36,367 nucleotides of DNA, from NCBI GenBank assembly GCA_947630245.1, contig CANRGR010000008.1:1-36367 (forward strand), given 5' to 3'. This DNA is from an uncultured Clostridia bacterium (GTDB taxonomy: Bacteria; Bacillota; Clostridia; Christensenellales; Borkfalkiaceae). The position numbers were made by a program, and so were the translations under genes. How positions within the stretch are numbered: position 1 is the stretch's first letter; every line of letters starts with the position of its first letter. Of the stretch, positions 8,067 through 32,566 are shown in pieces. Under the pieces are notes generated by a model. That model was not told the DNA's origin, made no database searches, and was given only the letters and a program-made list of their open reading frames with translations.

Positions 8067-8816
8067 ATGAAATCTCCGTTTGAAATCAAAAAAGAAATCT
8101 GCGAAGTCGGTCACAAACTCTACGCGAAGAATTTCGTTGCGGCAAACGACGGCAACATCTCCGTGAAGATCAACGACAACGAGTTCTATTGCACGCCCAC
8201 GGGCGTGTCGAAGGGCTCGCTCACCCCGGATATGATCATCAAGGTCGACCGGGATGGGAACAAGATCGAGGGCAAGCTCAATCCCTCCTCCGAAATCAAG
8301 ATGCACATGCGCGTCTACCGCGACCGTCCCGACGTCAACGCGGTCGTCCATGCGCATCCGCCCGTTGCGACGGCGTTTACGGTTGCGGACATCAATCTCG
8401 ACCAGTACATTCTGCCCGAGGCGGTTCTCACGATCGGCGAAGTGCCCACCTGCGACTACGGCACGCCTTCGACGATGGAGATTCCCGATTCCCTCGAACC
8501 CTACATCCAGACGCACGACGCATTCCTGCTCCGCAACCACGGCGCGCTGACGGTCGGCTGCGACCTGACAAAGGCGTTCTTCATCATGGAAGAAGTGGAA
8601 TTCAACGCGATCATCTGCAAGCACGCGATGGAGCTCGGCGCGGTGCACGAGATTCCCAACAGCCAGCTCAAAAAACTCATGGAACTGCGCGAAAAACTGC
8701 ATCTTACGGGGCGTCATCCCGGACTCGAAATTGAGGAAGAACATCCCGCACAGCCCACGCAGGAAGCGCTCGTCGAGGCGATCACAAAGAGAGTTCTTGC
8801 CGCGCTCGGCAAGTGA
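8067..8816 (+). CDS. Class II aldolase (rhamnulose/fuculose-1-phosphate aldolase type) with C-terminal encapsulation-peptide-like helix
   Basis: NDGNISVKINDNEFYCTPTGVSKG, VVHAHPPVATAF, LLRNHGALTVGCDLTKAF; C-terminus PTQEALVEAITKRVLAALGK. Confidence 0.9.
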   Translation: MKSPFEIKKEICEVGHKLYAKNFVAANDGNISVKINDNEFYCTPTGVSKGSLTPDMIIKVDRDGNKIEGKLNPSSEIKMHMRVYRDRPDVNAVVHAHPPVATAFTVADINLDQYILPEAVLTIGEVPTCDYGTPSTMEIPDSLEPYIQTHDAFLLRNHGALTVGCDLTKAFFIMEEVEFNAIICKHAMELGAVHEIPNSQLKKLMELREKLHLTGRHPGLEIEEEHPAQPTQEALVEAITKRVLAALGK

Positions 8817-8840: not shown

Positions 8841-10292
8841 ATGGCAATTAACTGGACGGACGCGCAGATCGAGGAAGTGGTGGCAACGGTCATCAAGAGC
8901 CTCGGCGCCGCCTCCGAGACCGGAAGCTGGGACGCCACGCAGTACCACGGCAGAAAGCTCATCGGTATTTTCGAGGACATGAACGACGCGATCGACGCGG
9001 CAACGGCGGGCTACAAGGCAATCCGCGCGATGTCGCTCGAAGAGCGGGAAAAAGTGATCGGCGCAATCCGCGATCTCTGCCGCAAGGAAGCGGCGGCAAT
9101 GGCGGAACTCGGCGTTGCCGAGACCAAGATGGGGCGCGTCGAGCACAAGACGGCAAAGCACATTCTTGTGGCGGATAAGACGCCCGGCACGGCGGACATC
9201 GTCGCGCAGGTCAAGACGGGGGACTACGGTCTCACGCTCACCGAAATGGCTCCCTTCGGGGTCGTGGGCAGCATCACGCCGAGCACGAACCCCTCGGAGA
9301 CCGTCCTCTGCAACAGCATCGGCATGGTTGCGGCGGGCAACGGCGTCGTGTTCAATCCCCACCCGAACGCGATTGCAACTTCCAACTATGCGGTGGACCT
9401 TGTCAACCGCGCCAGCGCTTCGGCGGGCGGACCGAAGGTGCTCGTCGCCTCTGTGGTGAAGCCCACGCTCGACACGGCGCAGATCATGTATCAGCATCCC
9501 GCGATCCGTCTCCTCGTCTGTACGGGCGGTCCCGGCGTGGTGAAGAGCGTGCTTTCGAGCGGCAAAAAGGCGATCGGCGCGGGCGCGGGGAACCCTCCCG
9601 TCATCGTCGACGACACGGCGGACGTGAGAAAGGCGGGCAAGGACATCATCGACGGTTGCAGTTTCGACAACAACCTGCCCTGCATTGCGGAGAAGGAAGT
9701 GTTTGCGTTCCGCAACATCGCGGACGAACTCATCGACTCCATGCTCCACAGCGGCGCGTACATGATTACGCACGAACAGGCGGACGCGCTGGCGAAGATC
9801 GTGCTTGTGGAATCCAAAAATCCCAAGACGGGAATCGTCAAAAAGATCGTCAGCCGCGAATGCGTCGGCAGAGACGCAAAGGTGCTCCTTGCGAAGATCG
9901 GCGTGACCGTCGGCGACGAGGTGCGCTGCATTATCTGCGAGACGGAATTTGAGCATCCCTTCGTGCAGAACGAGCTCATGATGCCGATTCTTCCCATCGT
10001 GCGGGTGAACGACATCGACGAGGCGATCGACCTTGCGGTCAAAGCGGAACACGGGTGCCGCCACACCGCGCACATGCACTCCAAGAACATCGACCATCTC
10101 ACGCGCTTTGCGCGGGCGGTCGAGACGACGATCTTCGTCAAGAACGCGCCCTCCTATGCGGGGATCGGGTTCGGCGGCGAGGGACATACGACGTTCACGA
10201 TCGCAGGTCCCACGGGCGAAGGACTGACGAGCGCGCGCAGCTTTACGAGATACCGCAGATGCGTGATGTCGGACAGCTTCCGCATTATATAA
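8841..10292 (+). CDS. pduP: CoA-acylating propionaldehyde dehydrogenase with N-terminal encapsulation-peptide-like helix
   Basis: MAPFGVVGSITPSTNPSETVLCNSIGM, GAGAGNPPVIVDDTADV, FDNNLPCIAEKEVF; N-terminus MAINWTDAQIEEVVATVIKSLG. Confidence 0.92.
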   Translation: MAINWTDAQIEEVVATVIKSLGAASETGSWDATQYHGRKLIGIFEDMNDAIDAATAGYKAIRAMSLEEREKVIGAIRDLCRKEAAAMAELGVAETKMGRVEHKTAKHILVADKTPGTADIVAQVKTGDYGLTLTEMAPFGVVGSITPSTNPSETVLCNSIGMVAAGNGVVFNPHPNAIATSNYAVDLVNRASASAGGPKVLVASVVKPTLDTAQIMYQHPAIRLLVCTGGPGVVKSVLSSGKKAIGAGAGNPPVIVDDTADVRKAGKDIIDGCSFDNNLPCIAEKEVFAFRNIADELIDSMLHSGAYMITHEQADALAKIVLVESKNPKTGIVKKIVSRECVGRDAKVLLAKIGVTVGDEVRCIICETEFEHPFVQNELMMPILPIVRVNDIDEAIDLAVKAEHGCRHTAHMHSKNIDHLTRFARAVETTIFVKNAPSYAGIGFGGEGHTTFTIAGPTGEGLTSARSFTRYRRCVMSDSFRII

Positions 10293-10311: not shown

Positions 10312-11505
10312 ATGGATATTTCGGCTTCTCAGGTGGAAAACATCGTCAGAAAAATCCTCGGCGAGATGGGAACGGGCGCGAAGAGCACGGACATTCCCAA
10401 GACGGCGAAGGTCGCGATGCTGACCGCCCCCAAGCATATCGAAGTCAAGGAATTCGAAATTCCCGCGCTTCGGGACGACGATATTCTCGTCAGAGTAGAA
10501 GGCTGCGGCGTCTGCGGAACCGACGTGCACGAATGGAAGGGCGATCCCTTCGGGATCATCCCCGTCACGCTCGGACACGAGGGCACGGGCGAGATCATCT
10601 ATCTCGGCAAGAACATCAAGACGGACACGGCGGGCAATCCCATTAAAGTTGGGGATAAGCTCGTCACCAGCGTCATCAGCTGCGGCGAGTGCTACATCTG
10701 CCGCAACCATCCCGCGAACACGAATCTCTGCGACAAACAGGGCGTGTTCGGGCTCATTCCCCACAGCGACGCACAGCCGCTCACGGGTTGGTTCTCCACC
10801 CATCTTCTCATCCGCGGGAAGGGAGCGACTTACTTCGTCGTCAACGATCTCGACCTTCAAGAGAGAATGCTCCTCGAACTTGCGTGCGTGTGCGTGCATG
10901 CGTTGAAGCGCGCGAACGGGACGGGATTGCTGAATTTCAACTCCAAAGTGCTCGTGCAGGGGCTCGGTCCCGTCGGGCTCGTCATGATCAGCGTGCTCCG
11001 CGCGGCGGGCATCAACCACATCATCGCGATCGACGGAACGCCCAAGCGGCTCGAAATGGCAAAGAAACTCGGCGTCAAGACCGTGATCAACTTCCGCGAA
11101 GTGACGACGCTCGAAGAGCGCGTGAAGCTCGTCAAGAGCGTGGCGAACGGCGTCGGAGCGGACTTTGCGTTCCAGTGCACGGGCGCGCCCGCTGCCGCCA
11201 AAGACATCTATGAGTACATCCGCCGCGGCGGCGGTCTCTGCGAGATGGGCTTCTTCGTCAACAACGGAGAGTACAACGTCAATCCCCATTTCGCAATGTG
11301 CAACAAGGAGATCAATCTCGTCGGCTCGTGGGACTATTCCGCGGACGACTATCCAACGACGATGGCGTTCCTCCGTCAGGCGCGCGAGATGAACATTCCC
11401 ATCAAGGATCTCATCACGCACACCTTCCCGCTCGACAAACTCAACGAGGCGATGGAAGTCAACGTGGCGCAGGCGGGGATCAAGATCTGCTACGTCGCGC
11501 AGTAA
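10312..11505 (+). CDS. Zinc-dependent alcohol dehydrogenase with N-terminal encapsulation-peptide-like helix
   Basis: GCGVCGTDVHEWKGDPFGIIPVTLGHEGTGEI and SCGECYICRNHPANTNLC (catalytic and structural Zn motifs); N-terminus MDISASQVENIVRKILGEMG. Confidence 0.9.
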   Translation: MDISASQVENIVRKILGEMGTGAKSTDIPKTAKVAMLTAPKHIEVKEFEIPALRDDDILVRVEGCGVCGTDVHEWKGDPFGIIPVTLGHEGTGEIIYLGKNIKTDTAGNPIKVGDKLVTSVISCGECYICRNHPANTNLCDKQGVFGLIPHSDAQPLTGWFSTHLLIRGKGATYFVVNDLDLQERMLLELACVCVHALKRANGTGLLNFNSKVLVQGLGPVGLVMISVLRAAGINHIIAIDGTPKRLEMAKKLGVKTVINFREVTTLEERVKLVKSVANGVGADFAFQCTGAPAAAKDIYEYIRRGGGLCEMGFFVNNGEYNVNPHFAMCNKEINLVGSWDYSADDYPTTMAFLRQAREMNIPIKDLITHTFPLDKLNEAMEVNVAQAGIKICYVAQ

Positions 11506-11539: not shown

Positions 11540-11875
11540 ATGGCGCTTGGCATGATAGAAGTTTTCGGATTCGCGACGGCGATCGTCGTGGCGGATGCGA
11601 TGGTCAAGGCGGCGGACGTCGAGCTCGTTGCGATTGATAAAAACAAACCCGCGGCGGGGGACGCGGCAAGAGTGCCCCTCGTCATGGTGGTGAAGGTGGA
11701 AGGGTCGGCGGCGGCAGTGGAAGCGTCGATCGCGGCGGGGAAAGCCGAAGCCGAAAAACGGGAGCTCTACATCACCCACAAGGTGATCGCAAGGCAGAGC
11801 GAGGACATCGAGTGGTTTGCCCATCTCAACGCCCTCGGAAGAGACAAACTCAGAAATAATGAAAATCAAAAATAA
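11540..11875 (+). CDS. BMC-H shell protein with atypical pore loop and C-terminal extension
   Basis: [69 protein letters not shown] fits the BMC domain with extra residues in the pore-loop region. Confidence 0.85.
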
Positions 11876-11892
11876 TTAAGGAGATTAAAATT

Positions 11893-12168
11893 ATGTTGGA
11901 AGCATTGGGTATGGTTGAGACCAGAGGTCTCGTGGCGGCGATCGAAGCGGCAGATGCGATGGTCAAGGCGGCGAACGTCGTTTTGATCGGCAGCGAGAAG
12001 ATCGGCAGCGGGCTCGTGAGCGTCATGGTGCGCGGCGATGTCGGCGCGGTGAAAGCGGCGGTCGAAGCGGGCGGCGCGGCAGCGACGGCGCTCGGCGAAG
12101 TCGTGGCGACGCACGTCATTCCCCGTCCTCATTCCGACGTCGAAAAACTTCTTCCCACGATCAAGTAA
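11893..12168 (+). CDS. BMC-H shell protein, PduA-like (copy A)
   Basis: [61 protein letters not shown]...[15 protein letters not shown]. Confidence 0.95.
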
Positions 12169-12185
12169 TTTTCGCGCGAGGGTTT

Positions 12186-12458
12186 ATGAACGCAATCGCA
12201 TTACTGGAAGTGCAAGCTATGGTTGCCGCAATCACCGGGCTTGACGCGATGGTAAAGGCGGCGGACGTGAAGCTGATCCACGTCGAAAAGCGCCTCGGCG
12301 GCAGACTTGTCACGGTCGTCGTCGAAGGCGAGGTTTCGGCTGTGACGGCGGCGGTTCAGGCCGGTGCCGCCGCCGCGGCAAAGGTAGGCAAGGTCAAATC
12401 GTGCGAGGTGATTGCGCGCCCGCACCCCGACGTCATGAGATTTCTGACGACGGGCTGA
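12186..12458 (+). CDS. BMC-H shell protein with divergent RLGGR pore loop
   Basis: [60 protein letters not shown]...EVIARPHPDV. Confidence 0.92.
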   Translation: MNAIALLEVQAMVAAITGLDAMVKAADVKLIHVEKRLGGRLVTVVVEGEVSAVTAAVQAGAAAAAKVGKVKSCEVIARPHPDVMRFLTTG

Positions 12459-12520
12459 CGGATTCAGCGGAGCGGTCGCTCCGATGACGAAATAAGAAAA
12501 TAATACAGGAGGAACATGTC

Positions 12521-12793
12521 ATGGAAGCATTGGGTATGGTTGAGACCAGAGGTCTCGTCGCGGCGATTGAGGCGGCGGATGCAATGGTCAAGGCGGCGAA
12601 TGTCATTCTGATCGGCAGCGAGAAGATCGGCAGCGGACTCGTGAGCGTCATGGTGCGCGGCGATGTCGGCGCGGTGAAAGCGGCAGTCGAGGCAGGCGGC
12701 AGAGCAGCGACCGCGCTCGGCGAAGTCATTGCGACGCACGTCATTCCCCGTCCTCACGCAGACGTTGAAAAACTTCTTCCCACGATCAAGTAA
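12521..12793 (+). CDS. BMC-H shell protein, PduA-like (copy B, near-identical to 11893-12168)
   Basis: [43 protein letters not shown]...; differs from copy A at only four aligned residues. Confidence 0.95.
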
Positions 12794-12892: not shown

Positions 12893-13546
12893 ATGGAAAT
12901 CACAAGTGCACAGATCACGGAAATCGTCAAGAAAGTGCTTGCGGGCATGGAGGACGGCGCAGGTTGCGAGGACAATCTCGTCCCCGTCGGCGTCTCCAAC
13001 CGCCATATCCATCTGAACAAGGCGGATCTTGCGACGCTCTTCGGAGAGGGTTACGAACTCACGCCCCTCAAAGATCTGTCGCAGCCCGGGCAATACGCCT
13101 GCAAGGAACTTCTGACTCTGATCGGTCCCTCCCTGCGTCCCATTGAGAACGTGCGCGTGCTCGGTCCGGTGAGAAGCAAATCTCAGGTGGAGATCTCGGC
13201 GACCGATTCCTATGTGCTCAAAGTGAAACCGCCCGTGCGCGAATCGGGCAATATCGCGGATTCCGCGGGGATCACAATCGTCGGTCCACGGGGAGTCGTC
13301 ACTCTGAAAGAGGGATGTATCATTGCAAACAGGCACATCCACATGTCGCCTGCGGACGCCGCGCGGTTCGGCGTGAAGGACGGGGACACGGTCACGGTGG
13401 ATGTCGACGGAAAGCGGCGCACGCGCTGGTACGACGTGCAGATCCGCGTCAGTCCCGACTTCCGTCTTGAAATGCATGTCGATACCGACGACGCGAACGC
13501 GGCGGGGATCGGCAACGGCTTCAAAGTGAGGGTCGTGAAGGAGTAA
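12893..13546 (+). CDS. pduL: PduL-type phosphate propanoyltransferase with N-terminal encapsulation-peptide-like helix
   Basis: VPVGVSNRHIHLNKADLATLFGEGYELTPLKDLSQPGQYACKE and ANRHIHMSPADAARFGVKDGDTV: two PduL-type RHIH metal motifs. Confidence 0.95.
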   Translation: MEITSAQITEIVKKVLAGMEDGAGCEDNLVPVGVSNRHIHLNKADLATLFGEGYELTPLKDLSQPGQYACKELLTLIGPSLRPIENVRVLGPVRSKSQVEISATDSYVLKVKPPVRESGNIADSAGITIVGPRGVVTLKEGCIIANRHIHMSPADAARFGVKDGDTVTVDVDGKRRTRWYDVQIRVSPDFRLEMHVDTDDANAAGIGNGFKVRVVKE

Positions 13547-13549
13547 GCG

Positions 13550-13798
13550 ATGCTGAGAGGAATCATCAGAGGAAACATCGTCTCTACGAGGAAGCAGGAA
13601 TCGCTTGTGGGCGCGAAGTTCATGGAAGTGGAAATCATGGAAAACGGCGAATTGACGGGGAAATACATCATCGCCATCGACAGCGTCGGCGCGGGCATCG
13701 GCGAAACGGTGCTCATCACCGTGGGGAGCCCCGCGCGCCTCGCACTGCACAACAGGGATGTTCCCACGGACGCGGTCATCGTGGGTATTGTGGATTGA
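13550..13798 (+). CDS. BMC-P pentameric vertex protein (EutN/CcmL family)
   Basis: MLRGIIRGNIVSTRKQESLVGAKFMEVEI...IAIDSVGAGIGETVLITVGSPARLAL...DAVIVGIVD. Confidence 0.93.
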   Translation: MLRGIIRGNIVSTRKQESLVGAKFMEVEIMENGELTGKYIIAIDSVGAGIGETVLITVGSPARLALHNRDVPTDAVIVGIVD

Positions 13799-13838: not shown

Positions 13839-15158
13839 ATGGAAATCGACAAACTCGGAAAATTGATGAAGGATTGCGGGGTCGTAGGCGCGGGCGGCGC
13901 AGGATTTCCCTCCTACGCCAAACTTGCCGGCGGGGCGGACACGCTTCTCGTGAACGGCTCGGAGTGCGAGCCTCTGCTCTATACCGACTATTACCTTCTC
14001 AAAACCGGAATGCCCGAAGTGCTCGCGGGCATCCGTGAACTGCTCGAAGCTCTCGGGATTTCCCGTGCGTTTCTGTGCATCAAAGAGCATACCGCAAAGC
14101 GGTTGCGGCTTTCGGACGGCGAAACACTCGCCGAAAAGGTCGCGGTAAAGACGCTTCCCGACGTCTATCCGATGGGGGACGAGATCAGTCTCATCTATCA
14201 GGCGACGGGGAGAATCGTAAAGCCGGGGTGTCTCCCCATCACCGCGGGCGTGATCGTCTACAACGTCGAGACGGTCTGCAATATCGCCGCGGCGTGCAAC
14301 GGGACGCCCGTCACAATGAAATGGCTGACGGTCGGAGGGGACATCCCCGAGGCGATCGTCGTGCGCGTGCCGGTGGGAACGCCGGTCACGGATCTGTTTG
14401 AAAAATACGGAATCACTGTCCCCGAGGACCACACCGTGCTCGACGGCGGTCCCTCGATGGGAAAGATTATAGACGAACGGGCGGTCGTCACCAAGACGAC
14501 GAAGGGAATCCTCATCCTGCCCGACGAGACGGAGGCGATCCAGTCCAAACTGCTCGACGCAAAGCGTTCGGTTGCGCGGGCGGAGACCGCCTGCTGTCAA
14601 TGCACGCACTGCACGGACATGTGTCCGCGCGCCCTGCTCGGATATCCGATCGAGCCGCACAAGCTCGTGCGCACGGCGCGGCAGGCGGTGGAGATCACGC
14701 CCGAAATGGCGATTACCGCGAGCCTGTGCTGCGGTTGCGGCGTCTGTACGAGCGTCGCCTGCTGCCAGGAGATCTCGCCCAAAGCGGTCATCGACTATTA
14801 CAAGGGCATTCTTGCAAAGAACAAACTCAAATACATCTCGAAAGAGGAGCCGAAGGCGGAACCCGAGCGGGAATACCGCATGATTCCCTCCGAGCGGTGG
14901 GCGAAGTCGCTCGGCGTGGGACGGTTCGACCGCGTGCCCGTCTTTCGCGGCGAGGACAGAGAGTTTTCCCGCGTGGAGGTCAGGCTCTCCCAGCATATCG
15001 GCGCGCCGAGCAAGGCGATCGTCGGGGCGGGGGAGATGGTCGAAGCGGGACAGCGGATCGCCGATAGCGCCGAGGGACTCTCTCTTCCGCAGTATGCGCC
15101 GATCGCGGGTCAGGTGAAACTCGTCACCGAAAAAAAGATCGTCATCGACAGGGGGTAA
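13839..15158 (+). CDS. pduS: PduS/RnfC-like electron transfer flavo-iron-sulfur protein
   Basis: GVVGAGGAGFPSYAKLAGGADTLLVNGSECEPLLYTDYYLL; ferredoxin-type motifs CCQCTHCTDMCPR and CCGCGVCTSVACC. Confidence 0.92.
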   Translation: MEIDKLGKLMKDCGVVGAGGAGFPSYAKLAGGADTLLVNGSECEPLLYTDYYLLKTGMPEVLAGIRELLEALGISRAFLCIKEHTAKRLRLSDGETLAEKVAVKTLPDVYPMGDEISLIYQATGRIVKPGCLPITAGVIVYNVETVCNIAAACNGTPVTMKWLTVGGDIPEAIVVRVPVGTPVTDLFEKYGITVPEDHTVLDGGPSMGKIIDERAVVTKTTKGILILPDETEAIQSKLLDAKRSVARAETACCQCTHCTDMCPRALLGYPIEPHKLVRTARQAVEITPEMAITASLCCGCGVCTSVACCQEISPKAVIDYYKGILAKNKLKYISKEEPKAEPEREYRMIPSERWAKSLGVGRFDRVPVFRGEDREFSRVEVRLSQHIGAPSKAIVGAGEMVEAGQRIADSAEGLSLPQYAPIAGQVKLVTEKKIVIDRG

Positions 15159-15161
15159 GCA

Positions 15162-15707
15162 ATGTTCAGATCAGTCGGAGTCATCGAACTGAAAAATGTA
15201 CCGAAGGGCGTGGAGGCGACGGACGACGCGCTCAAAAGCGCGGGCGTGGAGCTTGTCTCCGCCCATCCTTCCTGTCCCGGGAAGTATGAAATCATCCTCA
15301 CGGGCTCGATCTCCAATGTCACCGCGTCCGTCAATCACGTCACGGAAAAATTCGAAAACTATGTGATTGATTCCTCCGTCATGGGCAGAATCGACGAACA
15401 GGTCATCACGGCGCTGTTCGGGACACAGAAAGAGGCAAAGAAGGGTGCGCTCGGGCTCATCGAGACGTTCTCGGCGGCGAGCTGCATCAAGGCGTCCGAC
15501 CTTGCGGTCAAGACGGCGCGCGTGGAGATCTTCGATCTCCGCGTCTCGCGCGGGCTCGGCGGCAAAGGCGTCGTGCTCCTCACGGGCGAAGTGGGGGACG
15601 TCACGGCGGCGGTCGAAGCGGGCGCAAATTACGCAAAGGGGCTCGGAATGCTCTCGGCAAGTTCGGTCATTCCCGCGCCGCATGCCGATCTTTGGGATCA
15701 GCTTTAA
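15162..15707 (+). CDS. pduT: BMC-T shell protein, PduT-like
   Basis: Two BMC domains in tandem; SAHPSCPGKY places a Cys at residue 38, the position of the Fe-S ligand described for PduT. Confidence 0.9.
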   Translation: MFRSVGVIELKNVPKGVEATDDALKSAGVELVSAHPSCPGKYEIILTGSISNVTASVNHVTEKFENYVIDSSVMGRIDEQVITALFGTQKEAKKGALGLIETFSAASCIKASDLAVKTARVEIFDLRVSRGLGGKGVVLLTGEVGDVTAAVEAGANYAKGLGMLSASSVIPAPHADLWDQL

Positions 15708-15730: not shown

Positions 15731-18262
15731 ATGGAACAAATCAAATTTGTGATTCAGAAGAGCGCGCGGATCGGCAAGCTCATCGACGATCTCTACGCCA
15801 AGATGCCGGAGATCGAGTCCGCACGCGGGATCCTCGTCACGGAGAGCTACCGGAGCACGGAGGATCTTCCCATCATCCGCCGCAGAAGCGCGGCGTTTGC
15901 GCACATTCTCAAAAATATTCCGATCATCATCCGCGACGGCGAACTCATCGTCGGAAGCGCGACCATCGCGCCGCGCGGCTGTCAGGTCTTTCCCGAATAT
16001 TCCTATGAATGGCTGGAAGCGGAATTCGATACGGTTGCGACCCGCGCCCCCGACCCGTTCTACATCAGCGAAAAGACAAAACAGGAGCTCCGCGCCGTCT
16101 ATCCCTATTGGAAGGGAAAGACGTGCAGTGACCTTGCCCGGACGAACATGTCCCCCGAGGCGTATGCGGCGTTCACCGTGCACGGCATGTACACGCCCGG
16201 GAACTACTTCTACAACGGAATCGGGCATGTCAACGTGGACTATGCAAAGGTGCTCCGCGTCGGATACCGCGGGATCATCGACGAGGCGAAGGAAGCGCTC
16301 GCCTCGCTCACCGTCTGCAATCCCGAATATGTGCGCCGCCACAATTTCCTCACGGCGGTCGTCGAGAGCTGCGAAGCCGTGATCGGCTATGCCAATCGCT
16401 ACGCCGTTCTCGCGCGCGACATGGCGAGAAAGGAAGCGAACGCAACGCGGCGGGCGGAACTCAAAGAGATTGCCTCCGTCTGCGCCCGCGTGCCGGAGAA
16501 TCCCGCGCGCAACTTCCGCGAGGCATGCCAGAGCTTCTGGTTCATCCAGCTTTTGCTCCAAATCGAATCGAGCGGACATTCCATCTCGCCCGGCAGATTC
16601 GACCAATACATGTATCCCTATTATAAAAAGGATATGGACGAGGGTAAGATCACGCGGGAACAGGCGCAGGAACTGCTCGACTGTATCTGGGTCAAACTCA
16701 ACGACATCAACAAGTGCCGTGACGCGGCGTCTGCGGACGGATTCGCGGGCTACGGCATGTTCCAGAATCTCATCGTCGGCGGTCAGGACGTCCACGGCAT
16801 GGACGCGACCAACGATCTGTCTTTTATGTGTATCGAAGCGGCGATGCACGTCCCGCTTCCCCAACCGTCGCTCTCCATCCGCGTCTGGAACGGCTCCCCG
16901 CAGGATCTTCTCCTCAAAGCGGCGGCTCTGACGCGCATCGGCACGGGACTGCCCGCCTATTACAACGACGAGATCATCATTCCTTCGATTATGGCGCGCG
17001 GGCTCACGCTCGAGGACGCGCGGGATTATTGCATTATCGGCTGCGTCGAGCCGCAGAAGGGCGGCAAGACGGACGGCTGGCACGACGCCGCGTTCTTCAA
17101 CATGTGCCGCGCGATGGAGATGGTTTTCACAAACGGCATGGACAGGGGCGTCAGAATCGGACCGGAGACGGGCGACGTCACAAAGATGACGACCTTCGAA
17201 GAAGTGTTCGAGGCGTACAAGACCCAGCAGACGCATTTTATCCGTCTCCTCGTCAATGCGAACAACGCGATCGACGCCGCGCATGCGGTGCGCTGTCCGC
17301 TTCCTTTCGAATCCTGTATGGTGCAGGACTGCATCGGGCGCGGAATGTCTCTCCAAGAGGGCGGCGCGATCTATAATTTCACGGGACCTCAGGGCTTCGG
17401 TATCGCGAACAACACCGACGGACTTCTTGCGATCAAACAACTTGTCTTTGAAGAGAAGAAGGTGACGATGGCGGAATTCCGCGACGCGATGGCGGCGAAC
17501 TTCGGCTACGGATTGAAGGGCGCCGCGGCGGAGCGGGTGACGGGCGAGATCGCCGCACAGCTCCGCAAACAGGGCGTGAACGTGGACGAGAAGGTCGTCA
17601 AGGTCATCTATGACGAAGTCACGTCGGCGGGCGGGCTCGATCCCAAGTTGAAGGCGAGGTATCGCGAGATCAAACGTCTCATCGACGAGACCTGTCCCAA
17701 ATACGGCAACGACATCCACGACGTCGACATGTTCGCCCGCGAAGTGGGCAACACCTACACGAAGGAGATGGAAAAATACCGCAATGTGCGCGGCGGCACC
17801 TTCCAGGCGGGGCTCTATCCCGTCTCGGCGAACGTCCCGCTCGGCGCGCAGACGGGCGCAACGCCCGACGGCAGGCTCGCATACACCCCGATCGCGGACG
17901 GCATCGGTCCCGCTTCGGGCAGAGACGTGAAGGGTCCGACCGCGACGGTCAACTCCGTTGCGAAGCTCGAACAGGGAATCGCCTCCAACGGGACACTGCT
18001 CAACCAGAAATTCCATCCTTCCGCACTGGCGGGGATGGCGGGACTTACCAAGTTCGTCGCGCTCATCCGCTCCTATTTCGATCAAAAGGGCATGCACATG
18101 CAGTTCAACGTCGTCACGCGCGAAACGTTGCTCGACGCGCAGAAGCATCCCGAAAAATACAAGACGCTCGTCGTGCGCGTGGCGGGATACAGCGCGCTCT
18201 TCACAACGCTCTCCCGCTCTCTCCAAGACGACATCATCAACCGCACGCAGCAGGGATTCTGA
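15731..18262 (+). CDS. Glycyl radical enzyme, probable B12-independent 1,2-propanediol dehydratase
   Basis: Active-site DYCIIGCVEPQKGG and C-terminal glycyl-radical motif VVRVAGYSALFTTLSRSLQDDIINRTQQGF; BMC context. Confidence 0.93.
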   Translation: MEQIKFVIQKSARIGKLIDDLYAKMPEIESARGILVTESYRSTEDLPIIRRRSAAFAHILKNIPIIIRDGELIVGSATIAPRGCQVFPEYSYEWLEAEFDTVATRAPDPFYISEKTKQELRAVYPYWKGKTCSDLARTNMSPEAYAAFTVHGMYTPGNYFYNGIGHVNVDYAKVLRVGYRGIIDEAKEALASLTVCNPEYVRRHNFLTAVVESCEAVIGYANRYAVLARDMARKEANATRRAELKEIASVCARVPENPARNFREACQSFWFIQLLLQIESSGHSISPGRFDQYMYPYYKKDMDEGKITREQAQELLDCIWVKLNDINKCRDAASADGFAGYGMFQNLIVGGQDVHGMDATNDLSFMCIEAAMHVPLPQPSLSIRVWNGSPQDLLLKAAALTRIGTGLPAYYNDEIIIPSIMARGLTLEDARDYCIIGCVEPQKGGKTDGWHDAAFFNMCRAMEMVFTNGMDRGVRIGPETGDVTKMTTFEEVFEAYKTQQTHFIRLLVNANNAIDAAHAVRCPLPFESCMVQDCIGRGMSLQEGGAIYNFTGPQGFGIANNTDGLLAIKQLVFEEKKVTMAEFRDAMAANFGYGLKGAAAERVTGEIAAQLRKQGVNVDEKVVKVIYDEVTSAGGLDPKLKARYREIKRLIDETCPKYGNDIHDVDMFAREVGNTYTKEMEKYRNVRGGTFQAGLYPVSANVPLGAQTGATPDGRLAYTPIADGIGPASGRDVKGPTATVNSVAKLEQGIASNGTLLNQKFHPSALAGMAGLTKFVALIRSYFDQKGMHMQFNVVTRETLLDAQKHPEKYKTLVVRVAGYSALFTTLSRSLQDDIINRTQQGF

Positions 18263-18273
18263 TCCGAGGGATT

Positions 18274-19056
18274 ATGGCATATCAAGGCAAAGGCAGAATT
18301 TTCAATATTCAGCGCTTCTCGATCCACGACGGTCCGGGAATCCGTACCATCGTGTTTTTCAAGGGCTGTTATATGCGCTGTGCCTGGTGCTGCAACCCCG
18401 AATCGCAGGAATACGGGATCGAGACGATCGTCGAAAACGGAAAGGAAAAGACGGTGGGGCGGGACGTGACCGTGGAGGAGATCATGCCCGAATTGCTTTC
18501 GGACGCGATCTTTTACCGCCGTTCCGGGGGCGGGATTACGCTCTCGGGCGGGGAATGCCTTGCCCAGCACGAGTTTGCGCGCGATCTGCTCGAAGCCTGT
18601 AAAAACGAGGGACTGCATACGGCGGTCGAATCGACGGCGAACGCGCCCTTCGAAAAAATCCGTGCGATTCTTCCCTTTCTCGATCTCTATCTCATGGACG
18701 TCAAGCACATGGACAGCGCGAAGCACCGCGAATATACGGGGGTCGGAAACGAACTCATCCTCGCAAACGCGCGGAAGATCGCGGAGAGCGGGGTGGAGCT
18801 CATCATCCGCACGCCCGTGATCCCGGGCTTCAACGATACCGAGGGAGAGATCCGCGCGATTTCCCGCTTTGCGGCGTCCCTTCCGGGCGTGAAGGAGCAC
18901 CACTTGCTCCCGTATCACCGCCTCGGACAGGACAAATATGCGGGGCTCGGAAGATCGTATGCGCTCGACGGCGTGGAACCGCCCACAAAAGAACGGATGG
19001 AGTACTTACTTTCATGCGCCGAGACGAGCGGGCTGCGATGCCAGATCGGCGGATAA
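18274..19056 (+). CDS. Glycyl-radical-enzyme activase (radical SAM)
   Basis: FSIHDGPGIRTIVFFKGCYMRCAWCCNPESQ (CxxxCxxC), GGGITLSGGECLAQ, LMDVKHMD, RTPVIPGFNDTE. Confidence 0.95.
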   Translation: MAYQGKGRIFNIQRFSIHDGPGIRTIVFFKGCYMRCAWCCNPESQEYGIETIVENGKEKTVGRDVTVEEIMPELLSDAIFYRRSGGGITLSGGECLAQHEFARDLLEACKNEGLHTAVESTANAPFEKIRAILPFLDLYLMDVKHMDSAKHREYTGVGNELILANARKIAESGVELIIRTPVIPGFNDTEGEIRAISRFAASLPGVKEHHLLPYHRLGQDKYAGLGRSYALDGVEPPTKERMEYLLSCAETSGLRCQIGG

Positions 19057-19067
19057 GGGAGGATTCA

Positions 19068-19427
19068 ATGGAACTCAAAGAAAAAATGCGCATCATACAG
19101 GAGCTCGTCCCCGGCAAGCAGGTCACGCTCTGCCACATCATCGCCAACCCCGACGACGTGCTCTATACCAAGCTCGGGCTCGATCCCAAGACCGACTATT
19201 CGCGCAGTGCGATCGGCGTGCTTACGATCAGCCCCTGCGAGAGCGCGGTCATCGCGGCGGACATCGCCTTGAAGGCGTCCAACGCCGAAGTCGGATTTGT
19301 GGACAGATTCACGGGCACGCTCATCATCTCGGGCTCGGTCTCGGCAGTCGAAGCCGCGTTTACGGCGATCCGCGAATATGTGATCAATAAGCTCGGCTAC
19401 ACCTGCTGCGAACTGACAAGAACCTGA
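19068..19427 (+). CDS. PduU/EutS-like (circularly permuted) BMC-H shell protein
   Basis: MELKEKMRIIQELVPGKQVTLCHIIANPDDVLYTKLGL...AIGVLTISPCESAVIAADIALKASNAEVGFVDRFTGTLIISGSVSAVEAAF. Confidence 0.92.
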   Translation: MELKEKMRIIQELVPGKQVTLCHIIANPDDVLYTKLGLDPKTDYSRSAIGVLTISPCESAVIAADIALKASNAEVGFVDRFTGTLIISGSVSAVEAAFTAIREYVINKLGYTCCELTRT

Positions 19428-19459: not shown

Positions 19460-19897
19460 ATGAAGAAGATCATTCTGATCGGCCGCGTTGCGGCGGGCAA
19501 GACCACGCTCACGCAGGCGTTGCGCGGCGAGGAGATCCACTACTTCAAGACGCAGTACATCAATTATCTCGATACGATCATCGACACGCCGGGCGAGTAC
19601 ACCGAGCTTCGGCAGACGAGCGGAGCGCTGGCGCTCTATGCCTATGAGGCGGACGTCGTCGGGCTCGTGCTCTCCGCAAACGAACCGTATTCCATCTTTT
19701 CGCCCTGCATCACGAGCCTCGTCAACCGCGAGGTGATCGGGATCGTGGCGGGGATTGACAAACCCGACGCCAACGTCGAACGCGTTTCCCGTTGGTTGCG
19801 GCTTGCGGGGTGCAAGAAGATCTTCCCCGTGAGCGCGGTGACGGGCGAGGGACTTTCGGATATCATTGCCTATCTCGAAGAGGAGGGCAAAAGATGA
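19460..19897 (+). CDS. EutP/PduV-like P-loop GTPase
   Basis: MKKIILIGRVAAGKTTLTQALRG (Walker A), IIDTPGEYTE, AGIDKPDAN, PVSAVTGEGL. Confidence 0.92.
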   Translation: MKKIILIGRVAAGKTTLTQALRGEEIHYFKTQYINYLDTIIDTPGEYTELRQTSGALALYAYEADVVGLVLSANEPYSIFSPCITSLVNREVIGIVAGIDKPDANVERVSRWLRLAGCKKIFPVSAVTGEGLSDIIAYLEEEGKR

Positions 19898-20685
19898 GCC
19901 TTACAAAAGTGATCTCCTTTGCCAACAACAAGGGCGGAAGCGGAAAGACGACGACATGTTCCAACGTCGGCTGTGCGCTCTCCATGCTCGGCAAGCGCGT
20001 GCTCATGATCGACGGGGATATGCAGCTCAATCTCACCATCTCTTACTTCGACGAGGACACCGCGCTCGGATTTGCCAAGAGCGGAAAAAACATTCTCGCC
20101 GCGGTCAAGGAGGAGCGCGATCTCGGGGAATATGTCGTTCCCACGAGATTCGAGGGACTCGATATGGTCACGTCGTCCTCCCTCATGAGCGGGATCGAGT
20201 TCGAACTCTTTCCCAAATGGCAGCGCGAATTTGTGCTTTCCAAGTGCCTCGAACCCGTCAAGGCGCGGGGGACGTACGACTACATCCTCATCGACGCGCC
20301 GCCCACGCTCGGCGGCTGGGTGATGAATATCCTCTGTGCGTCGGACGACGTCGTCATTCCCGTCGAAGCCAGCCCGTGGGGGCTCTTCGGACTTGCCAAT
20401 ATGTTTGACTTCATCTCGCAGGCAAAGCGGCTCGCGCCGCGGATGGAGATCCTCGGGATCGCCGTCACGAAGGCGGACGAGCGGAAAAAATATTTCAAGC
20501 AGACCCTCGAAACGCTGAAAGGGTTGGAGCAGACGCGGATGTTCGAGAACTATATCCGCGTGGACAGCGCGATCGAATGGTCGCAGGACAGCAGCTGTCC
20601 CGTTGTCGCCTATAAAAAGACGAGCCGTAGCGCCGTCGAATATAGTAATCTTACAAAGGAGATCATGAAGTATGCCGATCGGTAA
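19894..20685 (+). CDS. ParA/MinD-family ATPase in the BMC operon (McdA-like positioning ATPase candidate)
   Basis: FANNKGGSGKTTTCSNVG (deviant Walker A with signature Lys), LMIDGDMQLNLT (A'), YDYILIDAPPTLGGWVMN (Walker B). The ATG overlaps the EutP-like stop (ATGA). Residues after the ATG match ORF-track entry 19792-20685. Confidence 0.93.
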   Translation: MSLTKVISFANNKGGSGKTTTCSNVGCALSMLGKRVLMIDGDMQLNLTISYFDEDTALGFAKSGKNILAAVKEERDLGEYVVPTRFEGLDMVTSSSLMSGIEFELFPKWQREFVLSKCLEPVKARGTYDYILIDAPPTLGGWVMNILCASDDVVIPVEASPWGLFGLANMFDFISQAKRLAPRMEILGIAVTKADERKKYFKQTLETLKGLEQTRMFENYIRVDSAIEWSQDSSCPVVAYKKTSRSAVEYSNLTKEIMKYADR

Positions 20686-20899
20686 AAATGCAATCAAGAG
20701 AGTGGAGAACAACGGCTATTCCAACGTGCAGACGTCCGCGCCCGACATGGAGAACAGCGTTGTTCTTGCGGAAGGGGAACGCCCCGCAAAGCGCGCGCCC
20801 GCAGCCAAAAAGCCCGCAACCGAGAAGAAAGTCGGCGGCGGAAAGAACGGCTTCGAACGCGTGGAGTTTGGCGACGAAATGCCGTATTGGCTCCTTTAA
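20672..20899 (+). CDS. Small basic protein partner of the ParA ATPase (candidate McdB/ParB-like adaptor)
   Basis: MPIGKNAIKRVENNGYSNVQTSAPDMENSVVLAEGERPAKRAPAAKKPATEKKVGGGKNGFERVEFGDEMPYWLL; overlaps the parA 3' end by 14 nt; aaaggag RBS upstream; terminator follows directly. Confidence 0.8.
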   Translation: MPIGKNAIKRVENNGYSNVQTSAPDMENSVVLAEGERPAKRAPAAKKPATEKKVGGGKNGFERVEFGDEMPYWLL

Positions 20900-20907
20900 C
20901 CGGACGG

Positions 20908-20943
20908 TCCACCCGAAAATCGGGTGGATTCTTCGCGTTTTTT
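20908..20943 (+). terminator. Rho-independent terminator closing the BMC operon
   Basis: TCCACCCGA-AAA-TCGGGTGGA then ttcttcgcgtttttt. Confidence 0.8.
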
Positions 20944-20950
20944 GCCATTT

Positions 20951-20976: not shown

Positions 20977-21008
20977 GCGCGTTTTTGCGCGCGGAGGGGG
21001 TTGATTTT

Positions 21009-23072
21009 GTGAAAAACGCTTTTTTATATCTGGAGGACGGAAACGGCCGCGTCCTCTACATCGACCTTTCGGAGCGGGAATTGCCGCGCGGAAACGAGTA
21101 TGCGGAGCTTCCCTTCCTTGCGGAGTATTCCTGCGAGGCGGAGGGGGAATTGCACGGGGAGACGTCGAATTTCCGCCTCGTTTCGGAGCGGGAGCGGGGT
21201 GCGGTGAAAGAGAGCGTCTACCGCTCGGACGACGGCGCGGCGGAAGTTACCGTTATGCGGAAATTCCTGCGCGGCGTGCTCACGCAGTCCTGCGAAATCA
21301 AAAATCTCTCCTCGGGGCGCCTCTGCGTCAAGAAACTCTTTAACCGCTTCCCGGGGATCTGCACGGACGCGCTCTCGGGAGACTATCTCCGCGACGTCGA
21401 GATCGGCGTCGTGCGCGGCGAATGGGGCGGCGAGGGACAGCTGTTCTGGCAGAACGCCGAGGAGCTCGGGCTCTACCGCGCTACGGGACACCGCACGTCG
21501 TGCACGGCACAGCTCTGTTCGCCCGCCGCCTACACGACGAGAAAATTCGCGCCGCTTCTCTTTTTCCGCCACAAAAAGACGGGAACGGTCTGGGCGATCC
21601 AACATCTTCCCGAGGGACCCTATGTGCTCGAAATCGGGCTGACGGATCTCGAAAATATTCCCGGGAGTTTCTATTCCGCCGCCTGCGGCGCGGGCGACAG
21701 CGAGCGGCAGGGGTTCCGCTACTATCTCGGCAGAAACAAGAGCTACCGCAACGCGGAGACCCTCTTCACCTGCATGCCCTCCTTCGGAGAGGCGGTTATG
21801 CGGCTCGCGGAATACCGCCGCACGTTGCGCCGCCGTCCCGCCCCGCCCATCATGTTCAACGACTACATGAACTGCCTCTGGTGCAGGCAGGGGGAGCGGG
21901 AGTGTCTCGATCTGATCGAAGCCGCGCAGAGCGTGGGAGCGGAGGGCTATTGTTTCGACGACGGCTGGTACCGCGCGCCCGACGAGGACGGTTCTCTCCG
22001 TTTGGGGGACTGGATTCCCTGCGATTCGCGCTTCGGCGGGCATACCTTCGCCGAGATGGTGGAGGAGGTCACCTGCCGCGGGATGATCGCGGGCGTCTGG
22101 ACGGAGCTCGAAGTGTGCGCCTCGCGCGCCGCGGCGAGCAAATTCCCCAAGTCGTGGTTCCTCCGCAACGAGGGAGAGCGGATCTTCCGCTGCGGACGGT
22201 ACTATTTCGATCTCACGCGTAAGGATGTGCAGGACTATCTGATCGGAAGGGTGCGCGCGCTCTATGATCTCGGCGTCCGCTACATCAAGAACGACTACAA
22301 CGGGCACCCCGGCTGCGGCTGCGACCACAGGAATGCGTCGCCCTATGCGGGGCTCGAAGTGCATTGCCGCGCCGTGAACGCCTTTTACGAGCGGCTGGGA
22401 CGGATTTTCCCCGATCTCATCCTCGAAAACTGCGCTTCGGGAGCGATGCGGGCGGACGCGCGCACGATGCGCAACTTCAACACGCAGAGCATCTCCGACT
22501 GCGAAGAGTATGAAAAGATGCCCTCCATCCTCAACGGCACGCTCCTGTCCCTCCTGCCCGAACAGATTTCGGTGTGGGTCTATCCCTATCCGCGCATCTT
22601 CTGGGAGATGAACGGCGAGGGGTATCTCACGCGGGAGTACATCGCGTCCCAGGCGGACGGAAGGCAGACCGCGTTCAATTTGGTCAGCGGCTTCATGGGA
22701 ACGCCGCTCCTCTCGGGCAAGATCGACCGCGCCGACGAAAAGAACTTCGAACTCATTGCGCGCGGGATCGCCCTCTACAAGGAAAAGCGCGATTTCATCT
22801 CCACAGCGCTGCCCGTGTATCCGCTCGGCTGCGCCCGTCTCACCGATCCGCTCCGTCCCATCGCGCAGGGGTTGAAGCGCGGAAAGCGGATCCTGCTTGC
22901 CGTGTGGAGAAGGGAAGGGGAGGCGCGCGTGCACATCCCGATCGAGGGGATCGCGGGCGCGGAAGTCTGTTTCCCGCGGGGCGGCTGCGGCATCGACCGC
23001 CGCGAAAACGCCGTCGACGTCGTGTTCTTCGAAAAGAATCAGGCGGTTCTCCTCGACATCACGCTCGGCTGA
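21009..23072 (+). CDS. Alpha-galactosidase-like glycoside hydrolase (GH36/clan D type)
   Basis: GYCFDDGWYRAPDEDGSLRLGDW, DLGVRYIKNDYNGHPGCG, LILENCASGAMRADARTMRNFNTQSISDCEEY. GTG start after GGAGGGGG; the ORF-track TTG at 20985 is less likely. Confidence 0.8.
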   Translation: MKNAFLYLEDGNGRVLYIDLSERELPRGNEYAELPFLAEYSCEAEGELHGETSNFRLVSERERGAVKESVYRSDDGAAEVTVMRKFLRGVLTQSCEIKNLSSGRLCVKKLFNRFPGICTDALSGDYLRDVEIGVVRGEWGGEGQLFWQNAEELGLYRATGHRTSCTAQLCSPAAYTTRKFAPLLFFRHKKTGTVWAIQHLPEGPYVLEIGLTDLENIPGSFYSAACGAGDSERQGFRYYLGRNKSYRNAETLFTCMPSFGEAVMRLAEYRRTLRRRPAPPIMFNDYMNCLWCRQGERECLDLIEAAQSVGAEGYCFDDGWYRAPDEDGSLRLGDWIPCDSRFGGHTFAEMVEEVTCRGMIAGVWTELEVCASRAAASKFPKSWFLRNEGERIFRCGRYYFDLTRKDVQDYLIGRVRALYDLGVRYIKNDYNGHPGCGCDHRNASPYAGLEVHCRAVNAFYERLGRIFPDLILENCASGAMRADARTMRNFNTQSISDCEEYEKMPSILNGTLLSLLPEQISVWVYPYPRIFWEMNGEGYLTREYIASQADGRQTAFNLVSGFMGTPLLSGKIDRADEKNFELIARGIALYKEKRDFISTALPVYPLGCARLTDPLRPIAQGLKRGKRILLAVWRREGEARVHIPIEGIAGAEVCFPRGGCGIDRRENAVDVVFFEKNQAVLLDITLG

Positions 23073-23100
23073 AACCGCAATATCGCCTGAATTTTCCGGA

Positions 23101-23128
23101 AATCTCCTTCAAAAAAGGAGATTTTTTT
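23101..23128 (+). terminator. Rho-independent terminator after the GH36-like gene
   Basis: AATCTCCTT-CAAAA-AAGGAGATT followed by ttttt. Confidence 0.8.
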
Positions 23129-23188
23129 CATTTGCAAACCGCTTGAAAAAATTTTTGTCGAAATTGATAAATTTTTTCAGAAAACCCC

Positions 23189-23217
23189 TTGACAAAAAGT
23201 TCGAAGCGTGATATGAT
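23189..23217 (+). promoter_or_regulatory. Promoter of the rhamnosidase/secreted/ABC cluster, TTGACA-17-TATGAT
   Basis: -35 23189-23194, -10 23212-23217 within GCGTGATATGAT. Confidence 0.75.
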
Positions 23218-23268
23218 TTAATCGGTTACGCGAATAACTGAAATAATTTGTTAATTCATTGACGATCA

Positions 23269-23301
23269 TGTTTGTCATTTGTCAGTCAAATTTGACAAAC
23301 A
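23269..23301. promoter_or_regulatory. Operator-like inverted repeat between promoter and GH78 start
   Basis: TGTTTGTCA (23269-23277) and TGACAAACA (23293-23301), with an additional TTTGTCA at 23278-23284. Confidence 0.6.
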
Positions 23302-23328
23302 TTCGGTCGGATAGAGAGGGTAATAGAA

Positions 23329-24930
23329 ATGGATCGACGCGTGAGAGAGGTGTTGTTCCCCGTCGGGGTAACGGATGTCTGCGGCGAGATTGACAACGCC
23401 GCGGTTCTGACGAAGCAGTGCGATCTTCAAATCGGGCTCAACGAAGATCATCTCGTTACGGTGCACGGGAAGGGGTATCTCGTCCTCGATTTCGGAAAGG
23501 AGATCAACGGCTGCGTGCGGATTCTGACGCAGCTTTCGGACGGCGGGAGCTGTCTTGTCCGCGTCAGAACGGGGGAATCTCTCTCCGAGGCGTGCGCCGA
23601 GCTTGCCGAGCGGAATGCGGGGAACCATCATTCCCTGCGCGATTTCACGGCGGCGCTTCCCATCTATTCCGATCTCGAATTTTCCGAGACGGGCTTCCGC
23701 TTTGTGCGGATCGACTTCTGCGAGAACAAGACCGTCACGATCAAAGCGGTGCTGGCGATGTACATTCACCGCGATCTGCACCCGACGGGCGGCTTTGTCT
23801 GCAACGACGAGCGGGTCAACCGCATCTTCGAGGTCGCGTCGAGAACCCTCTTCCTCAATATGCAGAATTACATCTGGGACGGAATCAAGCGGGACCGTCT
23901 CGTCTGGATCGGGGATATGCATCCCGAGACGTCGGCGATCATCTGTCTGTTCGGCGCCGATCCGTCGGTGGAGGAGTCCCTCACCTATACGAAGGAGCAC
24001 ACGCCGCTTCCGACGTGGATGAACAACGCTCCGACCTACACGGCATGGTGGTTTGTCATCCTGCACGACTACTATCTGCAAAATGCCGACCGCGCCTATC
24101 TGGAAGAACAGAGAGAGTATCTCCGCGGCGCGCTCGAACTGATGGACGGCGAGATCAAAGAGGACGGCAGTTTCTCTTCGCTGAGCGAGTCGAGCCTGTT
24201 CGACTGGCCGAGCCACTGTTCGGAGGACGAGAAAGTCGGCGTGTTCGCGCTGTGGACGCTGGCGGCGAAGTGCGCGGAATATCTCTTCCGCGAAGTGGGG
24301 CTCGATCCCGCTCCCGCGCGGAACCTTTTGAGTAAGCTCTCCAAAAAGCGGGATCTTACCGTCAAAAAATTCAAACAATGCGAGGCGTTCCTCGTCTATG
24401 CGGGCATCCGCAGCGCCGAGGACGCATACGACTTCCTTACGGAGAGAGGCGCGCACGGATTCAGCACGTTCATGAGCTATTACATCCTGAGCGCGATTGC
24501 CGACGGCGGTCATCCCGACCGCGCGCTCGGACTGATGAAAGAGTACTACGGCGGAATGCTCGATCTCGGTGCGACGAGTTTCTGGGAGGACTTCAACATT
24601 GACTGGATCGAGGGGAGCGCCCCGATCGACCGTCATCCCCGCGAGGGAGAACACGATATCCACGGCGACTTCGGCGATCATTGCTATGTCGGGTTCCGCC
24701 ACAGTCTCTGCCACGGCTGGTCGTGCGGTCCCGTCACCTTCCTCATCCGTAAACTCGGCGGGATCGAGGTGCTCGAAGCGGGATGCAGGCGCGTGCGCGT
24801 CCGTCCGCAGCTTGCGGGGCTCGAATGGATGAAGATCGACTATCCCACGCCGTTCGGCGTCATTCATATCGAATGCGGCAAGGACGGGTGCACGGTCACG
24901 GCTCCGGAAGAGGTCGCGATCGAGCGGTAA
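23329..24930 (+). CDS. Alpha-L-rhamnosidase (GH78-like), no signal peptide
   Basis: QNYIWDGIKRDRLVWIGDMHPETSAI, TSFWEDFNIDWIEGSAPIDR, SLCHGWSCGPVTFLIRKLGGIEVLEAGCRRVRVRPQLAGLEW: GH78 catalytic-domain pattern. Confidence 0.88.
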   Translation: MDRRVREVLFPVGVTDVCGEIDNAAVLTKQCDLQIGLNEDHLVTVHGKGYLVLDFGKEINGCVRILTQLSDGGSCLVRVRTGESLSEACAELAERNAGNHHSLRDFTAALPIYSDLEFSETGFRFVRIDFCENKTVTIKAVLAMYIHRDLHPTGGFVCNDERVNRIFEVASRTLFLNMQNYIWDGIKRDRLVWIGDMHPETSAIICLFGADPSVEESLTYTKEHTPLPTWMNNAPTYTAWWFVILHDYYLQNADRAYLEEQREYLRGALELMDGEIKEDGSFSSLSESSLFDWPSHCSEDEKVGVFALWTLAAKCAEYLFREVGLDPAPARNLLSKLSKKRDLTVKKFKQCEAFLVYAGIRSAEDAYDFLTERGAHGFSTFMSYYILSAIADGGHPDRALGLMKEYYGGMLDLGATSFWEDFNIDWIEGSAPIDRHPREGEHDIHGDFGDHCYVGFRHSLCHGWSCGPVTFLIRKLGGIEVLEAGCRRVRVRPQLAGLEWMKIDYPTPFGVIHIECGKDGCTVTAPEEVAIER

Positions 24931-24947
24931 AAAAATTTCGGGCGGTT

Positions 24948-24992
24948 GAGCAGCCGCGGCTGCTCTTTCTGTGTTCCGCTGGAACACAGAAA
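24948..24992. other. Two adjacent stem-loops between the GH78 gene and the secreted-protein gene
   Basis: GAGCAGCCGCGGCTGCTC perfect palindrome (24948-24965), then TTTCTGTGTTCC-GCT-GGAACACAGAAA (24966-24992). Confidence 0.7.
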
Positions 24993-25019
24993 TAAAAAAA
25001 ACTTTAATTGGAGGAACAA

Positions 25020-26327: not shown

Positions 26328-26342
26328 GGCGAGGAGAATGAG

Positions 26343-29084: not shown

Positions 29085-29095
29085 TAAAAGCTCAG

Positions 29096-29122
29096 CCCCT
29101 GCCGCGGCGAACGCGGCAGGGG
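29096..29122. other. Strong intercistronic stem-loop upstream of the ABC binding-protein gene
   Basis: CCCCTGCCGCG-GCGAA-CGCGGCAGGGG, 11-bp perfect stem, no T-tract. Confidence 0.7.
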
Positions 29123-29142
29123 GAACAAAAAAGGAGACATCT

Positions 29143-30612: not shown

Positions 30613-30628
30613 CACAAAGGAGGACAAC

Positions 30629-31630: not shown

Positions 31631-31632
31631 TC

Positions 31633-32559: not shown

Positions 32560-32566
32560 GGTGAGT

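Follow-up and report, generated by a model that had tools for sequence, protein, structure and literature searches.

A ParA-type ATPase and a small adaptor at the end of a GRM5-type microcompartment operon: a candidate positioning pair with ParB-like relatives

The operon and its last two genes

The window, by which is meant the whole 36,367-nucleotide stretch of DNA analysed, contains what is by its gene content a GRM5-type (rhamnose/1,2-propanediol) microcompartment operon, and the last two genes of this operon are those of a ParA-type ATPase and of a 75-residue protein, here called the adaptor (Table 1). The GRM5 locus has been defined by a glycyl-radical enzyme and its activase, a class II aldolase, a lactaldehyde reductase, PduS, PduT and shell genes (PMC6325248). 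This set is complete in the window operon, in agreement with the original prediction of a rhamnose/propanediol glycyl-radical microcompartment operon. The genes found 3' of the operon (20985-34984), named by sight, are alpha-galactosidase-like, other glycosidase-like and lipoprotein-like genes and an ABC sugar transporter.

Table 1. Genes and features of the operon, in order of position in the window
Feature	Position	Strand	Basis
Class II aldolase (fuculose/rhamnulose-phosphate aldolase)	8067..8816	+	PF00596 E 2e-48
BMC-type acylating aldehyde dehydrogenase	8841..10292	+	NF011927 669 bits
Zinc alcohol dehydrogenase, GRM5 lactaldehyde reductase	10312..11505	+	PF00107/PF08240
Four BMC-H shell genes	11540..12793 (11540-11875, 11893-12168, 12186-12458, 12521-12793)	+	PF00936 E 1e-19 to 1e-28
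PduL-type phosphate propanoyltransferase	12893..13546	+	NF011652, above cut-off
BMC-P vertex protein (EutN/CcmL-like)	13550..13798	+	
PduS/RnfC-like protein	13839..15158	+	TIGR01945 196 bits, under cut-off 246
PduT-like tandem-BMC shell protein	15162..15707	+	TIGR02526 108 bits, under cut-off 250
Glycyl-radical enzyme, presumed 1,2-propanediol dehydratase	15734..18262	+	TIGR01774 804 bits; substrate inferred from context
Glycyl-radical enzyme activase	18274..19056	+	TIGR02494 297 bits
PduU/EutS-like shell protein	19068..19427	+	EutS model NF012012, 110 bits, just under cut-off 123
EutP/PduV-like GTPase, 145 aa, untailed in the window, tailed in relatives	19460..19897	+	TIGR02528, 145 bits vs cut-off 138
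ParA/Soj-type deviant Walker A ATPase, 263 aa	19894..20685	+	AAA_31, residue conservation, AF2 fold
Adaptor, 75 aa, McdB-like layout: proposed ParA-facing N-terminus, disordered linker, C-terminal tail	20672..20899	+	Conservation, purifying selection, AF2
N-terminal motif MPIGKNAIKR, proposed ParA-activating peptide	20672..20701	+	Conservation; function inferred
C-terminal tail MPYWLL, proposed compartment-docking peptide	20879..20896	+	Conservation, tail also on EutP; target inferred
Hairpin and T-run just 3' of the adaptor stop, probable operon end	20897..20950	+	-23.3 kcal/mol, z -3.27

A complete ParA starting in the EutP stop had been claimed for this locus, and it is present. Its ATG at 19894 overlaps the EutP gene, with its TGA at 19895-19897, by 4 nt, and the protein matches AAA_31 (Pfam, E 3e-49). 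The motifs KGGSGKTT, DGDMQLN and LIDAPPTLG are found, so that the deviant Walker A (KGGxxGK), Walker A' and Walker B are all represented, and across 25 relatives the residues K13/G14/G15/S16/G17/K18, D40, D42, D134 and R245 are invariant. The AF2 model (pLDDT 85, pTM 0.89) has Soj/ParA structures as its best fold matches (TMq 0.87, 0.86). The McdA compared by fold, that of Cyanothece, ranks 22 among the matches (TMq 0.80), and the sequence match of McdA to the window ParA is only 1e-10. In the window genome an ordinary ParB (MAKGLGRGLSALF...) also follows a second ParA, a chromosomal one; since this separate pair exists, the operon ParA, which shares 34% identity with the chromosomal one, is not the chromosome segregation system.

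The adaptor gene overlaps the ParA 3' end by 14 nt, as had been described. No Pfam or NCBIfam model matches the 75-residue protein, and a solved-structure search with it gave nothing significant. When the 80 closest relatives of ParA from GTDB species genomes (62-81% identity) were opened, a small ORF was found at the ParA 3' end in 62 of them, mostly with the same 14-nt overlap. Because the same ORF recurs in the same place, its presence is beyond chance and it is a real gene. It is under purifying selection: pN/pS is 0.144 over codons 6-29, which are clear of the ParA overlap, and 0.239 over the last 6 codons (42 sequences), and substitution is thus not random, the point on which the original prediction had proposed to check it.

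Both ends of the adaptors are fixed, with xIGKxxIxR at the N-terminus and [LM]Px[YWHF]LL at the C-terminus, and the K/A/P-rich linker between them varies. In 63 sequences G4 and R10 are invariant, the trimming pattern having included the N-terminal Gly, and K5 and I8 are each found in 61. At the other end P(-5) and L(-2) do not vary, and the tail [LM]Px[YWHF]L[LM] is found in 63/63, an invariance that is partly a product of the way the ORFs were collected, because the pattern used for this demanded most of it. By contrast, an ending in [WYHF]LL is seen in just about 0.2% of the unrelated ORFs of the same DNA. A conserved C-terminal Trp had been expected, but position -3 is Tyr in 49 adaptors and Trp in only 9, with His in 3 and Phe in 2. 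Adaptor lengths span 63-202 aa, a roughly threefold spread that is due to the linker. AF2 places a short helix at residues 6-12 alone (pLDDT 61, pTM 0.13), and a C-terminal helix of 4 or more residues is absent. The predicted architecture of basic N-terminus, disordered middle and aromatic C-terminus is therefore borne out by conservation and AF2. Pfam matches of the linkers to HC2 (histone-like) were dismissed as below cut-off and due to composition only. The terminator that had been predicted after the small ORF stands in part: a strong hairpin (-23.3 kcal/mol, z -3.3) lies directly 3' of the stop with a T6 run a few bases further downstream, but a strict consensus terminator scan does not include it among its terminators.

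Linkage of the ParA family to the compartment

ParA (PF01656) has been listed among the ancillary genes of BMC loci by Axen et al. in 2014 (PMC4207490). Among the 80 best relatives of the window ParA, the pair ends or adjoins a GRM5-type operon in 47, and in many other genomes (Blautia, Mediterraneibacter, Robinsoniella and others) it lies away from the GRM5 operon. BMC shell genes, detected with Pfam PF00936, are present in all 34 ParA-carrying genomes checked, in 32 of which the ParA is away from the BMC genes, and a GRM5-type cluster was found in each of the 17 of these genomes that were opened. The base rate of shell genes in the class is 87/288 genomes (30%), and the GRM5 reductase marker is present in 51/288. 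Window-type ParA occurs in 3/288, all three with shell genes and the GRM5 marker, and thus in only 3 of the 51 marker genomes. In the order to which genome G288 belongs, 8 genomes have both ParA and BMC genes, 1 (a 76%-complete genome) has ParA without BMC, none has BMC without ParA and 22 have neither; the eight genomes with both belong to one family and the counts are not phylogenetically independent. From these class and order counts it follows that the ParA-adaptor module is specific to GRM5 but optional. The original prediction had proposed to test whether the small protein co-occurs with ParA next to BMC genes; co-occurrence of the small ORF with ParA, and of ParA with BMC genes, is observed.

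Twenty ParA loci have no recognisable adjacent adaptor: 18 of the 80 and two (L102 and L103) in a related family, f54. A rhamnulokinase gene is present on the fetched DNA in 15 of the 18, and the next gene, where read, is AraC-type regulator-like by sight. ParA lies beside an AraC-like regulator and rhamnulokinase in L051, L053, L054, L056, L058, L061, L063, L068, L072, L074, L076, L080, L081 and others, and genomes with loci of this type carry their GRM5 locus at another site. In five genomes with adaptor-less ParA the exact N-terminal and tail patterns were never found near each other, and both positive controls were recovered. A different arrangement is seen at L045 (11482-12654), L046 (from 11464), L050 (11202-12371) and L055 (from 11078), where a gene for a PduQ-like alcohol dehydrogenase (by sight) directly follows the pair; the pair is not beside shell genes there and may form a satellite locus. 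The lactaldehyde reductases nearest to that of the window in the class sample (62% identity) come from the GRM5 loci of G063, G096 and G215, genomes without window-type ParA.

ParB-like relatives and a tail shared with EutP

In family f54, in which the ParA is Soj-like, the ParA partners are longer (about 165-210 aa, that of L119 longer still) and keep both the adaptor N-terminus (SIGKxSIxRA) and the tail (LPxYLL, MPTFLL). ParB_N is matched in the middle of the partner at three loci (E 2.8e-12, 6.2e-9 and 4.5e-12), all above the Pfam cut-off, and is not matched by Pfam in the window protein. L113-L119 are f54 loci with ParB_N between the adaptor N-terminus and the tail. The best solved relatives of the f54 partner are ParB/Noc/Spo0J, and the L119 partner combines a long K/A/P linker with a ParB_N-like domain, an intermediate form. 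Neither a parS-binding HTH domain nor a C-terminal ParB domain was detected by Pfam in the window partner or the f54 partners. Of the CTPase fold, box II (GxxRxxAA) is kept in f54 and boxes I (QPR) and III (ENLQR) are not, and it is therefore doubtful that the f54 partner binds CTP.

The only detectable homology of the partner is to ParB, as judged from one related family. ParB proteins carry an N-terminal ParA-binding motif, LG-[RK]-GL (PMC12704722), in which the hydrophobic residues and the basic residue at the centre make the contact with ParA (PMC12462528). The adaptor motif IGKxxIxR has in common with it the position, the Gly, the basic residue and a hydrophobic residue; the exact spacing differs. 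In a ParA tree a single clade (UFBoot 97) unites the linker forms with the adaptor-less forms. The ParB_N forms branch outside this clade, next to a Soj outgroup; the outgroup branch is long and support for the root is weak. On the simplest reading the adaptor is a descendant of a ParB, an ancestor that would have lost the parS-binding part first and the CTPase-fold domain afterwards.

The EutP proteins add a second observation. Of the 46 EutPs in ParA-linked loci, 21 have a disordered-looking K/P-rich extension that closes with [WYH]LL, mostly in the form L-x-x-[WYH]-LL. This is the tail of the neighbouring adaptor. The tailed forms are those of L003-L007, L010-L012, L015, L016, L023, L025, L027-L030, L033, L036, L037, L041 and L049. 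The window EutP is itself untailed, and several ParA-linked clades keep the adaptor tail with an untailed EutP. None of the other operon protein families of the ParA-linked loci ends in [WYH]LL. In 19 GRM5 loci from genomes without window-type ParA, the tail was found in 0 of the 6 EutPs present and no adaptor-like ORF was found.

Two points go beyond the original prediction. The adaptor looks like a degenerate ParB in which the parS-binding part may have been traded for a compartment tail, and EutP carries the adaptor tail in 21 of 46 ParA-linked loci. We lean slightly towards a history in which a segregation ParAB module was converted to organelle positioning: ParB would have retained the tip that faces ParA, given up the part that binds parS and gained a microcompartment-docking tail, a disordered linker would have replaced ParB_N in most lineages including that of the window, and the same tail would also have been added to EutP. 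In full-text literature searches, with subscription papers mostly outside their scope, no paper combining 'ParB-like', 'CTPase' and 'bacterial microcompartment' was found, nor any report of the adaptor-ParB link or the EutP tail, and the word microcompartment is absent from a 2025 ParB-fold survey.

Proposed function and comparison with known systems

We propose, with a probability of about 0.7, that ParA and the 75-residue protein work as a pair, spacing or partitioning the GRM5 microcompartment over the nucleoid. The nucleoid would carry a coat of ATP-bound ParA dimers, and the small protein would be anchored to the compartment by its [LM]Px[YW]LL tail. Contact of its N-terminal IGKxxIxR peptide with ParA would trigger ATP hydrolysis and ParA release, so that the compartment would follow the ParA gradient as a diffusion ratchet. 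Positioning is the best explanation of the layout and conserved ends of the adaptor, the linkage to the compartment, the ParA motifs and Soj fold, the ParB_N relatives, the EutP tail and the parallel with McdAB. The parallel is experimental, as the McdB N-terminus binds McdA (PMC12204374) and its C-terminal aromatic residue binds carboxysomes (PMC11321042). Against positioning are that the pair is optional in GRM5 genomes, that some ParA loci have no adjacent adaptor, and that the N-terminal motif is not an exact ParB motif. The tail could also bind something other than the shell.

Could the tail instead serve as a signal for encapsulation or assembly? In that case the small protein and the tailed EutP would enter or cross-link the compartment, and ParA would act on assembly or number and not on position. 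A linker with a short terminal motif is like cargo-targeting peptides in general layout, and the tail is common to two proteins of one operon. Encapsulation peptides are amphipathic helices, however, and the adaptor tail is unlike them, with only about 6-8 residues, an invariant proline and no C-terminal helix in the AF2 model. Encapsulation also leaves the conserved basic N-terminus beside a ParA unexplained, and PduV, a relative of EutP, is reported to be located outside the shell and to bind PduU (PMC4315436). We consider this reading unlikely, and because of the reported location of PduV a tail target on the compartment surface is favoured by analogy.

ParA itself is a possible tail target. 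The tail might bind ParA or a third factor, with EutP and the small protein as regulators or clients of ParA and with shell contact made elsewhere, for example between EutP and PduU. The restriction of tailed EutP to loci with ParA would fit this. However, the N-terminus is the expected ParA contact by analogy with ParB (PMC12462528) and McdB (PMC12204374), and the ParA-linked clades with a tailed adaptor have in several cases an untailed EutP, which makes this reading quite improbable. A role of the pair in segregating DNA, be it an element or the chromosome, with only an accidental place in the operon, is hardly credible despite the Soj-type ParA and the ParB_N of f54, since a separate chromosomal ParA-ParB exists in the genome, Pfam detected no HTH domain in the partner, and co-occurrence with one compartment type is tight even where the genes are far apart.

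The positioning proposal bears on the placement and inheritance of metabolosomes outside the carboxysomes and on the origin of McdB-like adaptors. For both questions the ParA-adaptor family offers a candidate that is defined and genome-linked, together with what looks like an evolutionary intermediate that still has ParB_N. As the tail is short and portable, both can be tested directly with a 20-residue peptide and a tag of roughly 10 residues.

Putative McdB-like proteins of PDU and GRM loci have reportedly been put forward by MacCready and Vecchiarelli in 2020/2021. They also appear in Basalla et al. 2024 (Fig. 4), and a Tyr or Phe is described among their last five residues (PMC11321042). 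As such proteins had already been proposed at GRM/PDU loci (PMC8262871, PMC11321042), the positioning idea itself is not new. By their description in the text they embody the same idea as the window pair; that text mentions neither ParB_N nor a shared EutP tail.

The window pair is likened to McdAB by its layout: a ParA-type ATPase and a small disordered adaptor with a basic N-terminus and a C-terminal aromatic residue are encoded with a BMC. The pair may work like McdAB, but the kinship implied by the original prediction is not supported, because Soj/ParA structures outrank McdA among the matches of the ParA model and the only homology detectable for the partner, in one related family, is to ParB. 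The window-family tail, with Tyr as the usual aromatic, also differs from the Trp motif R(V/I)WPD of alpha-McdB (PMC11321042), and relatives of the window adaptor carry ParB_N, of which no report was found for McdB. The pair resembles ParABS (Soj/Spo0J) in its Soj-type ParA, in the adaptor directly downstream and in the ParB_N of the f54 adaptors; it differs in that no HTH or C-terminal ParB domain was detected in the adaptors, that the f54 adaptors do not keep CTPase boxes I and III, and that a BMC-linked tail is present instead. PadC of Myxococcus xanthus is a ParB-fold protein that recruits ParA to bactofilin (PMC12704722). Its cargo and architecture are unlike those of the window adaptor, but in PadC too a ParB fold and a ParA-binding motif are coupled to a structure other than the parS complex.
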